From Pseudogemmobacter hezensis (GTDB lineage Bacteria > Pseudomonadota > Alphaproteobacteria > Rhodobacterales > Rhodobacteraceae), in the NCBI RefSeq assembly GCF_013155295.1, contig NZ_JABJXT010000003.1, forward strand, positions 62,001-126,000: 64,000 bases of DNA. The letters are read 5' to 3'. Below the pieces are notes generated by a model. That model was not told the origin of the DNA, made no database searches, and saw only the letters and a program-made list of their open reading frames with translations. A program made the position numbers and the translations under genes. Shown one piece after another: positions 27,893 to 63,444 of this stretch; the first letter of the stretch is position 1; each line of letters starts with the position of its first letter.

Positions 27893-27960
27893 CGGCAGAT
27901 GTAACGCAGGTGTGACGCGTAACGCTTGATTTGGGGGCGCTGCGGGGGCAGACTGAATCC

Positions 27961-28305
27961 ATGAACATGGAAGCCCCCCTTCCCTTTCCGCCGCATCAGG
28001 GTGATGGCGGGATGGTCGCCTTTCAGCGGCAGGAATTGTCAGTGATCCTGCGCCTTTACGGGATGATGGTCGCTGCAGGTGAGTGGCGCGATTATGGCAT
28101 CTCACATGGGCGAGAGGTTGCGGTTTTCTCGATCTTCCGGCGCAGCGCTGAGAACCCGCTTTACCGGATTGAAAAGCGCCCGAAGCTGCGGATGAAGCAG
28201 GGGATCTATGCCGTGCTTGGCGAAAATGGCCAGGTGCTGCGCCGTGGCCATGAGCTGGCGCCGGTGCTGCGGGTGCTGGAGCGCAAGCTGATCCGCCCCG
28301 TCTGA
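27961..28305 (+). CDS. DUF2794 protein
   Basis: 114 aa from the ATG at 27961 (MNMEAPLPF). The compact domain has the pattern FQRQELSVILRLYGMMVAAGEWRDYGI, EVAVFSIFRRSAENPLYRIEKRP, then QGIYAVLGENGQVLRRGHEL. This is the DUF2794 family, almost restricted to Alphaproteobacteria and of unknown function. It is soluble, without a signal peptide. The last codons (Ile-Arg-Pro-Val-stop) form the first unit of a 14-base tandem array that extends to 28360. Confidence 0.88.
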   Translation: MNMEAPLPFPPHQGDGGMVAFQRQELSVILRLYGMMVAAGEWRDYGISHGREVAVFSIFRRSAENPLYRIEKRPKLRMKQGIYAVLGENGQVLRRGHELAPVLRVLERKLIRPV

Positions 28306-28366
28306 TCCGCCCCGTCTGATCCGCCCCGTCTGATCCACCCCGTCTGATCCACCCCGTCTGATCCGC
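28291..28366. repeat. 14-base tandem array at the 3' end of the DUF2794 gene
   Basis: Five contiguous 14-base units, ATCCGCCCCGTCTG (28291, 28305, 28319) then ATCCACCCCGTCTG (28333, 28347), plus a partial ATCCGC at 28361-28366. Unit 1 is coding and contains the start of the TGA stop. The array nearly fills the 74-base spacer between the convergent DUF2794 and NlpC/P60 genes. Confidence 0.95.
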
Positions 28367-31394: not shown

Positions 31395-32042
31395 ATGATC
31401 AAGGCCCGCATATTGCCGCAATACCTTGTCCAGCGCTTTCACGGCTGGCGTGCGACGAGCTATCAGAACAACCGTGCATGGTATCGCCGTCTGGCAGAAA
31501 GCGGTCAGCATCCGCGTGCCATGGTGATTTCCTGCTGCGATTCGCGCGTGCATGTGACCTCGATCTTCGGGGCTGACGAGGGCGAGTTCTTCATTCACCG
31601 CAATATCGCGGGTCTTGTGCCGCCCTATACCAGTGATGGCGGTACGCATGGCACCTCGGCGGCGCTGGAATATGCGGTGACCGCGCTGAAAGTGGCCCAT
31701 ATCCTGGTGGTCGGCCATTCGAACTGCGGTGGCGTCAAGGGCTGCCATGACATGTGCACCGGCCATGCGCCCGAGCTGGAAGAGAAAACGAGCTTTGTTG
31801 GCCGCTGGATGGATATTCTGCGCCCGGGCTTTGAAAAGGTCTCGCATCTGCCGAAGGATGTGATCCTGCCTGCGCTGGAAAAAGAGGCGGTTCTGACCAG
31901 CCTTGAAAACCTGATGACCTTTCCCTTCGTGCGCGATGCGGTCGAAAATGACCTGCTGACGCTGCACGGGATGTGGAACAATACCGGCGAGGGCGAGCTG
32001 GAGCAGTATGACCCCGATCGCGGGGCGTTCATTCCGGTCTGA
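31395..32042 (+). CDS. Beta-carbonic anhydrase
   Basis: 215 aa zinc enzyme interconverting CO2 and bicarbonate. Zinc ligands are Cys48 (CDSR, with the Asp49-Arg51 dyad), His108 and Cys111 (HSNCGG). ADEGEFFIHRNIAGLVPPY and HGTSAALEYAV match the bacterial beta-class. No signal peptide, so cytoplasmic. AAGGAGCAAGCCC precedes the ATG. It is convergent with the UbiH-family gene, and the 93-base spacer between them is a 15-base-period array. Confidence 0.95.
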   Translation: MIKARILPQYLVQRFHGWRATSYQNNRAWYRRLAESGQHPRAMVISCCDSRVHVTSIFGADEGEFFIHRNIAGLVPPYTSDGGTHGTSAALEYAVTALKVAHILVVGHSNCGGVKGCHDMCTGHAPELEEKTSFVGRWMDILRPGFEKVSHLPKDVILPALEKEAVLTSLENLMTFPFVRDAVENDLLTLHGMWNNTGEGELEQYDPDRGAFIPV

Positions 32043-32048
32043 TCTGTG

Positions 32049-32138
32049 GGCAGGCGGCTGTCATGCTGCCTGCTGCCAGGCAGTATGTCGTCGGGCAGTA
32101 TGTCGTCAGACGGCGGCCTGTCAGACGGCAGGCTGTCA
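32049..32138. repeat. 15-base-period degenerate array filling the spacer between carbonic anhydrase and the UbiH-family gene
   Basis: Six consecutive 15-base units begin at 32049, 32064, 32079, 32094, 32109 and 32124. The units at 32079 and 32094 are identical over 14 bases (GGCAGTATGTCGTC). Those at 32109 and 32124 share GACGGC and CTGTCA. Four of the six end in TCA, which is TGA on the minus strand. The last unit (32124-32138) contains the actual stop codon of the minus-strand gene. Confidence 0.85.
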
Positions 32139-33374
32139 GACGGGCCGCCCGCTCAGCAATTTCGGCAGCTCTCCGGTCAGGCCTGCGGCCTGGCGGATAA
32201 AGCGGCGGCGCAGGCCGGGGGTGGCATTGACCAGCCCCATGCCCAGATCGCGCCCCAGACGCAGCAGCGGATTGTCGTTTGAGAACAGGCGGGTAACCCC
32301 GTCCATCCCAAGCGCAAGCAGCGTTGAATCAAACCGCCGCCAGCGCTGATATTCCTCAAGCGGCACGCCGCTGCCGATATCCTCGCCACGCCTGCGGGCA
32401 AGGATCAGCACCTCGGCCAGTGCCGCCACATCGCGCAGCCCAAGGTTCAGCCCCTGGCCCGCCACCGGATGCACGCCATGCGCGGCATCGCCCACCAGGG
32501 CCACCCGGTCAGAGACGAAATGCTCGGCCAGCGACAGCGACAGCGGATAGGTGAAACGCGCCCCCGCCAGCTGAATCTCGCCCAGGAAATCGCCAAAGCG
32601 CGGGCGCAAAGCGGTCAGGAAATCATCGTCGCTCAGCGCGGCAATCTTCGCGGCAAGGCTGCTTTCCTCGCTCCAGACGATTGAGGAATGGTATCCGCCC
32701 GCCAGCGGCAGGATCGCAAGCGGCCCGCCTGGCATGAAAAACTGCTGGGCGCAGCCCTCGTGGTGGATTTGGTGATGGACGGCGGTGACCAGCGCGGTCT
32801 GCCCATAGCCCGCCGCCTGCCGCCGGATGCCCGCCCGCAAAGCCACGCCCGAGCCGCGCCCGTCACAGCCAACCAGCAGGCTGGCCGTCAGCGCTTCGCC
32901 GGAGGCAAGCGTAACCGAGGCCCCGGCTGGCCCGATCTGCTGATCGGTGACCGCCTGGCCGGAAATCAGCGTGATGCCGGGGGTCTCATTCATGGCCTGC
33001 AGGAAGGCGGCGTAAAGATAGCGGTCCTCGAGCATAAAGCCCATCGGACCCTCTTCGATCTCATCGGCGTCAAAGGTCAGGAAGAAAGGGGCAGGGCCCT
33101 GGCCCGGGCGCCCGTCACTGGCCTTGATCTGGTGGATCGGCTGCGATTTCGCGCCGACCTGATCCCAGATGCCGATGGCCGACAAAAGCCGCTTTGACGC
33201 GATGGAAAGCGCATAGGCGCGGCCGTCAAACCCGGCCTCGGCCCGCGCAGGCGCAGGGCGCTGATCGACCACGGTGACCGACAGCCCGCCCTGGGCCAGC
33301 GCCAGTGCAAGCGCGGGGCCGTTCAGCCCGCCGCCCGCAATCACCACATCGCTTTGATGGTTCCGTTTTGACAT
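32136..33374 (-). CDS. UbiH/UbiF/COQ6-family FAD-dependent hydroxylase
   Basis: 412 aa class A flavoprotein monooxygenase for ring hydroxylation in ubiquinone synthesis. Motifs are GGGLNGPALALALAQGG (FAD Rossmann, about 14-30), the DGRAYALS segment near 50, CDGRGSGV (the DG motif) and the second FAD site GDAAHGVHPVAGQGLNLGLRD (about 292-312). Sequence alone does not tell whether it is the C5, C1 or C6 hydroxylase; alphaproteobacteria often have broad-specificity versions. The minus-strand ATG is at 33374, divergent from the amidase. ubiG of the same pathway is at the left end of the window. Confidence 0.9.
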   Translation of the reverse strand: MSKRNHQSDVVIAGGGLNGPALALALAQGGLSVTVVDQRPAPARAEAGFDGRAYALSIASKRLLSAIGIWDQVGAKSQPIHQIKASDGRPGQGPAPFFLTFDADEIEEGPMGFMLEDRYLYAAFLQAMNETPGITLISGQAVTDQQIGPAGASVTLASGEALTASLLVGCDGRGSGVALRAGIRRQAAGYGQTALVTAVHHQIHHEGCAQQFFMPGGPLAILPLAGGYHSSIVWSEESSLAAKIAALSDDDFLTALRPRFGDFLGEIQLAGARFTYPLSLSLAEHFVSDRVALVGDAAHGVHPVAGQGLNLGLRDVAALAEVLILARRRGEDIGSGVPLEEYQRWRRFDSTLLALGMDGVTRLFSNDNPLLRLGRDLGMGLVNATPGLRRRFIRQAAGLTGELPKLLSGRPV

Positions 33375-42690: not shown

Positions 42691-42850
42691 TTACGTCACC
42701 TCTTTTGAGGAAACGCTACAGAGACAGCCAATGCAAAGCGCTCTGTGAACGTTTCAGACATCTTCGCTGGTATAGTCCCCCATGCGTAGCGCGATGTGCC
42801 GGCTTTGTTAAGCAAAACTTGGTCTCGCCCGTTTTGTCGGCTTTATACCG

Positions 42851-42880
42851 CAACAGGGGGCAACAGGGGGCAACATGGGG
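42851..42880. repeat. 10-base tandem repeat, three copies
   Basis: CAACAGGGGG at 42851-42860 and 42861-42870, followed by a one-mismatch copy CAACATGGGG at 42871-42880. It lies 30 bases past the stop codon of the minus-strand H-type lectin gene and upstream of the GlsB-family gene. Confidence 0.95.
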
Positions 42881-57249: not shown

Positions 57250-57573
57250 GGTGCGACCTGAAGTTGCAAAGTTCACAATTGATTGTATGTGGGCGCCATA
57301 ATCCGACATAATGCGGCCAGATTGTCGCGGAATATAACGCGTAAGCCTGCGTTAACATATCAGACGCAGTATAGAGCCAATGGGGCCCTGCACCAGGATC
57401 CTGGACCTGGATTCTGGACGGCGGCTCTGGATGGCGGCCCCGGATGCAGGTCCTGAGCAGGCACGGCCGGATTGCCATGGCTGGATTGGCGCAGGCCGAT
57501 GTTGGGTCAGGCAGTGTTGGGTCAGACGGATTGAAGGTGAAGGCGGCCCCCCGAGCTTGCCACAGGTGACGAA
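57250..57573. other. Spacer before kpsT with two short tandem duplications
   Basis: 324 bases without a gene. It holds a weak rightward promoter-like pair (TTGTAT with CATAAT, 18-base spacing, about 57282-57311). A 13-base tandem duplication (TCTGGACGGCGGC, 57413-57438, one mismatch) and a 15-base duplication (units starting 57501 and 57516, sharing GTTGGGTCAG) follow. The segment in between is rich in CTGGA and GCAGG motifs. Confidence 0.5.
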
Positions 57574-63392: not shown

Positions 63393-63444
63393 GCGCTCCA
63401 TCTGGGCGCTCCATTTGGGTGGCCGATCTGGGTGGCCCATGTGC
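63393..63444. repeat. 13-base-period tandem array between pnp and rpsO
   Basis: Four 13-base units: GCGCTCCATCTGG (63393), GCGCTCCATTTGG (63406), GTGGCCGATCTGG (63419), GTGGCCCATGTGC (63432). The first two differ by one base, the third and fourth by several. It fills the gap between the pnp terminator and the rpsO terminator. Confidence 0.85.

Follow-up and report, generated by a model that had tools for sequence, protein, structure and literature searches.

Introduction

Bacterial minisatellites and VNTR loci consist of head-to-tail units of 10-20 bp with degenerate copies, and lie mostly in intergenic sequence; a genome is generally described as having a limited number of such loci. The origin of new minisatellites is poorly understood, since slippage can act only where a repeat already exists. 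Templated duplications that arise from staggered breaks filled in by end joining are of bounded size and involve little homology, and a transposase makes target-site duplications of nearly fixed length. A flap-based route to duplications is described for FEN1/rad27-deficient yeast; loss of the flap nuclease Rad27 is reported to raise both inversions and tandem duplications (PMC13334657).

We analysed an array of 15-bp units between two convergent genes of a bacterial genome, together with the window in which it lies (the whole stretch of DNA that was analysed, 64,000 nucleotides, to which all positions refer unless a contig is named). The array is one of many unrelated intergenic tandem duplications of about 10-18 bases, a class clearly commoner in this genome than in the sampled relatives. 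Members of this class are built like minisatellites, with head-to-tail units of 10-20 bp, degenerate copies and a mostly intergenic location, but they differ from the usual description of such loci in that an array of period 10-18 occupies 92 of 927 spacers, in the hump that they form in the size spectrum and in exceeding the level of the sampled relatives. Specifically, we observe an excess of duplications, a size-spectrum hump, a lower level in the sampled relatives and an in-frame filter within genes. The bounded sizes and scarce homology resemble those of templated duplications from staggered breaks, but the genome lacks Ku; a flap-based route would resemble that of FEN1/rad27-deficient yeast, but no missing flap nuclease was found. 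The interest of the focal array thus lies in its class, a size-limited tandem-duplication signature distinct from short slippage and lower in near relatives, and this genome-wide class is indicative of size-specific errors in copying rather than of a stop signal.

Results and Discussion

A 15-bp periodic array between two convergent genes

The carbonic anhydrase gene ends with a stop at 32040-32042 on the plus strand and the UbiH-family gene with a stop at 32136-32138 on the minus strand, and the spacer between them is 93 nt long (Table 1). Cut from 32049 to the UbiH stop, the sequence divides into six 15-mers with no remainder, exactly as a preliminary description of this DNA had it; in order they are GGCAGGCGGCTGTCA, TGCTGCCTGCTGCCA, GGCAGTATGTCGTCG, GGCAGTATGTCGTCA, GACGGCGGCCTGTCA and GACGGCAGGCTGTCA. 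The neighbouring units that it had called alike over 14 bases are the third and fourth, identical at 14 of 15 positions, and the four of six that it had seen ending in TCA are units 1, 4, 5 and 6. Similarity among the units is uneven: units 5 and 6 agree at 13 of 15 positions, and unit 2 matches the others at 7-10 of 15. The identity at lag 15 is 0.63, a value that none of 2000 dinucleotide shuffles reached at any lag from 5 to 40, so that the periodicity withstands the permutation check which had been proposed for it. The mean pairwise identity of the units is 0.62, compared with a mean of 0.27 and a maximum of 0.38 in 2000 dinucleotide shuffles, and four units ending in TCA appeared in none of 2000 such shuffles. 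In having more head-to-tail copies than chance would give, of a unit within the range of about 10-100 bp, the array is like a bacterial minisatellite.

The preliminary description had proposed that the 3′ end of the hydroxylase gene was amplified and then drifted. This is broadly right, and duplication around the UbiH stop followed by drift is supported. The 15 coding bases past the UbiH stop match the units at only 6-8 of 15 positions, and the gene end and the units therefore have essentially just the TCAGACGG core in common.

A sigma-70-like match, to the consensus only, lies on the minus strand inside the array (32097-32124; 9 of 12 bases, 16-nt spacer). Sites of this kind number 2 in 2.5 kb, and 0.7 are expected in shuffles.

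Table 1. Positions of the genes and tandem arrays discussed, in window coordinates
Feature	Position	Strand	Remarks
Reported array, focal spacer	32049..32138		six 15-bp units, partly drifted; the last ends with the UbiH-family stop (TCA on +)
Best-preserved sub-array	32105..32143		TRF; period 15, 2.6 copies; three TCAGACGG cores; across the UbiH stop
Second sub-array	32079..32107		TRF; period 15, 1.9 copies of GGCAGTATGTCGTCG
Carbonic anhydrase (PF00484)	31395..32042	+	left convergent partner
UbiH/UbiF/VisC/COQ6-family ubiquinone hydroxylase	32136..33374	-	TIGR01988, 397.5 bits (cut-off 224.65)
Sister array	28288..28366		14-bp unit x 5.6; convergent spacer; spans the DUF2794 stop
DUF2794 protein (PF10984)	27931..28305	+	3′ end amplified
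Spacer array of the class	42850..42880		period 10 x 3.1
Spacer array of the class	57387..57446		period 13 x 4.6; TRF splits it into three rows
Array of the class, convergent spacer	63393..63437		period 13 x 3.5; TRF row 63393-63419

A sister array and the same site in relatives

The sister array, 4 kb from the focal one, is a cleaner case of gene-end amplification: it is built from the last codons and the stop of the DUF2794 gene (ATC CGC CCC GTC TGA), with 96% matches by TRF. Both genes were found together in 11 of 12 relatives; there the spacer ranges from 4 to 853 nt, and no such array is seen in it. By eye, this spacer holds an unrelated 17-bp array in relative G010 and a 14-bp duplication across the other gene's stop in G003.

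The focal junction is variable as well. Sixty genomes, the window's own (G000) and 59 related ones, were searched with the carbonic anhydrase and UbiH-family genes, and among the 30 loci returned the two genes are convergent and adjacent in six relatives besides the window's own. The orthologous spacers measure 6 (G001), 28 (G005), 32 (G007), 32 (G012), 44 (G004) and 70 nt (G008), and none of these six other species has a 15-bp array at the junction. In G007 the end of the UbiH-family gene is repeated with a 13-bp period, as an exact CCCGTCTGA-4 nt-CCCGTCTGA; therefore duplication at this site arose more than once. The comparison with relatives that the preliminary description had called for thus gives varying lengths and a second duplication of the hydroxylase end, and the junction is a variable site.

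An exact inverted repeat, CCGTCTGA-6 nt-TCAGACGG, lies at this junction in G001 (locus L063) and G012 (L064). In G001 it consists of both gene ends, with both stop codons inside the stem; in G012 a copied hydroxylase end takes part in it together with the end of the carbonic anhydrase gene.

Arrays of period 10-18 are abundant genome-wide

We read 1.56 Mb of the 4.6 Mb of G000 (about 34%), in which a codon-usage gene caller, less certain for starts than for stops, called 1377 genes. For comparison, samples were taken from five relatives (400 kb of G007 and 100 kb each of G001, G002, G004 and G012) and from 79 of 80 loci of other Rhodobacteraceae genera, locus L197 of the G008 species being left out. 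Arrays were scored as ungapped self-alignments of score at least 13 in spacers of 15-600 nt (927 of 1365 neighbour pairs in G000), and five rounds of first-order Markov resampling supplied the expectation. In the 927 spacers of G000 (188 kb) there are 125 arrays, compared with 2.2 expected, and 104 of the 125 have a period of 10-18. Among convergent spacers, 31 of 183 hold an array of period 10-18, compared with 45 of 565 where the flanking genes are co-directional and 16 of 179 where they diverge; TRF arrays of score at least 40 number, per 100 kb, 25 in genes and 214, 109 and 93 in convergent, co-directional and divergent spacers. By contig, the density runs from 0 (C23a, with 7 kb of spacer, and the small samples of C7-C9) to 0.79 per kb (C1). 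One convergent spacer contains, at G000:C1:384820-384872, about 22 consecutive G and then about 23 consecutive C, possibly an assembly artefact.

The five relatives together have 13 arrays in 493 spacers by the same measure (G007, 2 in 207; G012, 3 in 74; G004, 5 in 71; G002, 2 in 64; G001, 1 in 77), and the other genera have 9 in 491. A laxer measure, exact runs of at least 8 bases at lags 11-18 in excess of dinucleotide shuffles, per 100 kb of spacer, gives 139 for G000 (281 observed, 33.4 in shuffles), 44 for G007 (20 and 5.3), 53 for G004 (8 and 1.8), 50 for G012 (9 and 2.7), 51 for G001 (10 and 3.6), 8 for G002 (4 and 3.1) and 25 for the other genera (35 and 15.1). Old or partial repeats of this size are thus present in near relatives at about a third of the G000 level. 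Because the laxer excess is seen in G007, G004, G012 and G001, the process is not private to G000 but common to near relatives, and raised about threefold in G000. The difference between G000 and the relatives is largest for fresh, perfect duplications: those of 10-17 bp number 47 in 178 kb of G000 spacer vs 2 in 81 kb for the five relatives (ratio 10.7, p 2.6e-6), and vs 3 in 79 kb for the other genera (ratio 6.9, p 2e-5). In a small control of 47 spacers (9.6 kb) from E. coli K-12, no perfect duplication of at least 7 bp was found.

Listed together, the array units of G000 look unrelated to one another, which bears on whether the focal units are copies of a dispersed functional motif, uptake-sequence-like or REP-like, built on CCGTCTGA. 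TCAGACGG occurs 13 times in the window vs 1.9 expected, the focal and sister arrays have this core in common, and it resembles the Neisseria uptake core. However, the 364-kb contig C23 holds 29 copies of the motif vs 20.6 expected, close tandem pairs of CCGTCTGA occur in G000 only at the focal and sister arrays, and the units of the other arrays are unrelated to it. These three results in the main refute CCGTCTGA as a genome-wide element, and a functional motif of this kind seems to us exceedingly improbable.

Reading frame, stop codons and folding

Inside genes, the same class appears filtered by reading frame. Gene interiors of G000 contain 66 arrays of period 10-18 in 1273 kb (52 per Mb), and 65 of them have periods that are multiples of three (26 of 12, 32 of 15 and 7 of 18), the remaining one having a period of 16. 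G007 has none in 334 kb, and the other genera have 13 in 775 kb. The other four relatives come nearer to G000 within genes, with 3 arrays in 76 kb in G012, 3 in 81 kb in G001, 3 in 82 kb in G002 and 2 in 81 kb in G004; these counts of two or three arrays each correspond to 39, 37, 36 and 25 per Mb. Perfect copies in G000 genes (1274 kb) number 4 of 10 bp, 1 of 11, 20 of 12, 7 of 15 and 3 of 18. The four relatives G012, G001, G002 and G004 together (321 kb) have 1 of 11 and 2 of 12 bp, G007 has none of at least 10 bp in 335 kb, and the other genera (775 kb) have 1 of 10, 2 of 12, 1 of 15 and 1 of 18 bp.

At spacer edges, where the preliminary description had suggested a search for arrays near stop codons, the class is again genome-wide: 34 stop-spanning arrays in G000 cover 35 stops, compared with a single start, although 931 stops and 923 starts were available. 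A neutral process would be expected to leave this excess of stops, since a gene is not damaged by a duplication that runs over its stop. Useful copied stops should show as a predominance of periods divisible by three; the 34 arrays fall 9, 14 and 11 into periods that leave 0, 1 and 2 on division by three, so we see no sign of a selected role, and the idea that the repeated stops serve as back-ups does not hold up, in-frame periods (9 of 34) being as frequent as chance would give.

The possibility that the focal array was selected, because it supplies the convergent pair with back-up stops or with a terminator hairpin, has several observations in its favour. The copied stops at the focal locus are in frame, the spacer forms a good fold on its plus strand (-65.4 kcal/mol, z -4.8, matched by none of 200 shuffles), and the junctions of G001 and G012 carry the exact inverted repeat described above. 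Nevertheless, stop-spanning arrays show no enrichment for multiples of three, and among the 218 strands of 109 convergent spacers of 40-160 nt (20 shuffles per strand) the focal fold ranks only 37th. Array-bearing convergent spacers in fact fold less than others (mean z -1.7 for 26 strands vs -2.9 for 192; Mann-Whitney p 0.014), and the sister array lacks a fold (z +0.6 and +2.4). The focal spacer has no terminator-like hairpin with a T run between 32043 and 32135, and stop-spanning arrays have no rut-like bias of C over G (15 of 34 positive). Selection for such a function at this locus is therefore very improbable, and the suggestion of a transcription boundary fails as a general role on the folding of the array-bearing spacers and of the sister array. 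A local effect on transcription at the focal site is possible, but it would not be the reason why the class exists.

Two structural candidates were rejected on these data: an intrinsic terminator, for want of a G+C-rich hairpin followed by a T run in 32043-32135, and hairpin formation as the common role of the arrays, array spacers folding less than other convergent spacers. A search of 31900-32300 against Rfam gave nothing above gathering score; the best match, to a microRNA family, scored 19.7 bits, and the gathering score of that family is 268.

Size spectrum and junctions of perfect duplications

The size spectrum was built from perfect two-copy duplications in 914 spacers of G000, spacers shorter than 25 nt, longer than 1000 nt or with homopolymers of at least 12 being dropped, and it was compared with far-lag and dinucleotide-shuffle backgrounds (given in this order in brackets). 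The counts are 731 at 4 bp (746; 713), 270 at 5 bp (222; 195), 76 at 6 bp (69; 50), 22 at 7 bp (20.5; 15.6), 6 at 8 bp (6.5; 3.9), 4 at 9 bp (2.5; 0.8) and 7 at 10 bp (1.0; 0.3). From 11 to 17 bp there are 8, 9, 7, 3, 9, 2 and 2 duplications on a background near zero; none is of 18-20 bp, and one is of 21 bp. The spectrum is thus two-humped rather than a single window: it is modestly raised at 5-6 bp, shows a gap around 8 bp and rises a second time at 10-17 bp. When drifted copies are scored as exact runs of at least 8 bases, they form a hump that spans 11-18 and peaks at 15; a smaller rise follows near 24-30 and would fit two units.

These data bear directly on ordinary replication slippage between short pre-existing direct repeats, which would require no special process. 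Slippage should give an excess that drops steadily with unit length, and the excess in G000 does not: it has all but vanished at 8 bp yet returns at 10-17 bp, a course that one falling curve does not give. On the other hand, the 5-6 bp excess (270 vs 195-222 and 76 vs 50-69) can be explained by slippage and is in part common to the relatives; slippage is therefore at work too, and once two copies are present it is adequate to add more. The junctions are similarly divided. Among 35 two-copy duplications of a strict set, from which a poly-G/poly-C tract was dropped, the two copies have 0 common junction bases in 16 cases, 1 in 7, 2 in 3 and at least 4 in 9; without homology, 19, 10, 4 and about 2 are expected. 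The 9 junctions with at least 4 bases speak for slippage, and the 26 of 35 with only 0-2 (33 expected without homology) speak against it as the general route; therefore most events need no homology and some may use it. Of the slippage product that the preliminary description had thought simplest, the neutrality is supported, and slippage itself may account for the modest short-unit excess but is doubtful as the sole cause, given the near-background count at 8 bp, the rise beyond it and the junctions. As a complete explanation of the arrays, we regard it as unlikely.

A probable duplication process and its possible molecular basis

Our preferred reading, which we consider probable, is that the focal array derives from a genome-wide process that duplicates about 10-18 bp and is most active in this species and lower in near relatives. 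Such a mutational process would make tandem duplications almost anywhere, and the focal array would be one of its products. A duplication across a stop would be tolerated, since the gene end and its stop would survive unaltered in the first copy; repeated events and point mutations would then yield a degenerate array with copied stops.

For the molecular step, we tentatively suggest that displaced flaps of 10-18 nt are mis-ligated during lagging-strand maturation or gap repair, a choice that falls well short of probable. The polymerase would copy a short stretch, and the displaced old stretch, left untrimmed, would be sealed in as a second copy; the size bounds may reflect flap length, short flaps being trimmed and long ones captured by SSB. 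We favour mis-sealed flaps because they would explain the lower and upper size limits and the frequent lack of microhomology.

No defective gene behind the duplications was found in G000. The PolA 5′ nuclease domain is matched at 186.2 bits, which is not the picture of a lost flap nuclease; in PolA, G000 differs at two columns where the other 12 genomes agree (N105S and D416N of a 671-residue fragment), compared with 0-12 such differences in the others. RNase HI, MutS, the ExoVII large subunit and DHH proteins are matched in G000 as well, so that visible loss of any of these or of the PolA domain was rejected, as was a lack of Y-family polymerases (4 matches in G000, 2-5 in the other 12 genomes). 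A third DHH-family match, at G000:C45:92398-92817, occurs only in G000, the other 12 genomes having two each. In G012, MutS domain V is split over two frames (G012:C1:736367-736929), through sequencing error or real loss, and the match to RNase HI is a short one; G003 lacks a MutS domain V match.

Duplications of bounded size with blunt, homology-free junctions, as often seen here, are also what would be predicted if nicks on opposite strands, staggered by 10-18 nt, were filled in and rejoined so that the stretch between them is duplicated. G012, which has Ku, has 3 arrays of period 10-18 in 74 spacers. However, Ku is absent from G000 (no PF02735 match) and present in only 2 of 13 genomes of the genus, G002 and G012, and the genome richest in arrays thus lacks the usual bacterial end-joining route; moreover, G002, with Ku, has no array of period 10-18 in 64 spacers. 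We consider staggered nicks a rather improbable source, and Ku-based end joining was rejected on the absence of Ku from G000. Target-site footprints of transposons were discounted purely on the argument that a transposase would leave a nearly fixed length.

In each of the two Ku-bearing genomes Ku is encoded twice, by oppositely oriented genes separated by about 3 kb, at G002:C1:470618-474813 and G012:C7:39161-43254; those of G012 are not on its large contig C1.

Returning to a duplication process proper to this lineage, it is quite conceivable, if still short of probable, that the lineage, and this species most of all, carries (or lacks) a distinct copying or repair activity that writes largely homology-independent duplications of 10-17 bp throughout the genome. 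A literature search, mostly of open-licence sources, returned no report of such a duplication signature in bacteria, and we do not claim that it is absent from print. If the proposal is true, it would describe a bacterial mutational signature apart from slippage, giving rise to new minisatellites, stop-codon echoes and in-frame protein repeats of 4-6 residues, and the enzyme responsible could be approached directly in a bacterium that goes on making new 10-17-bp duplications, most of them without homology. It would also caution annotators that a periodicity close to a stop codon may be the echo of a mutation instead of a signal.

Other repeated elements in spacers

By eye, variants of a recurring spacer element are present in the DUF2794/NlpC spacers of relatives (loci L095, L097, L103, L104, L105 and L106), and a further variant lies before the UbiH stop in L013. 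The element often takes the form of a GC hairpin, GGGGGCCAGCCCCC for example, with CCCCCGGRRTATTT and then a purine-rich tail behind it. In addition, the 10-mer TAAATATCCC occurs 9 times in contig C23 of G000, where 0.13 occurrences are expected.
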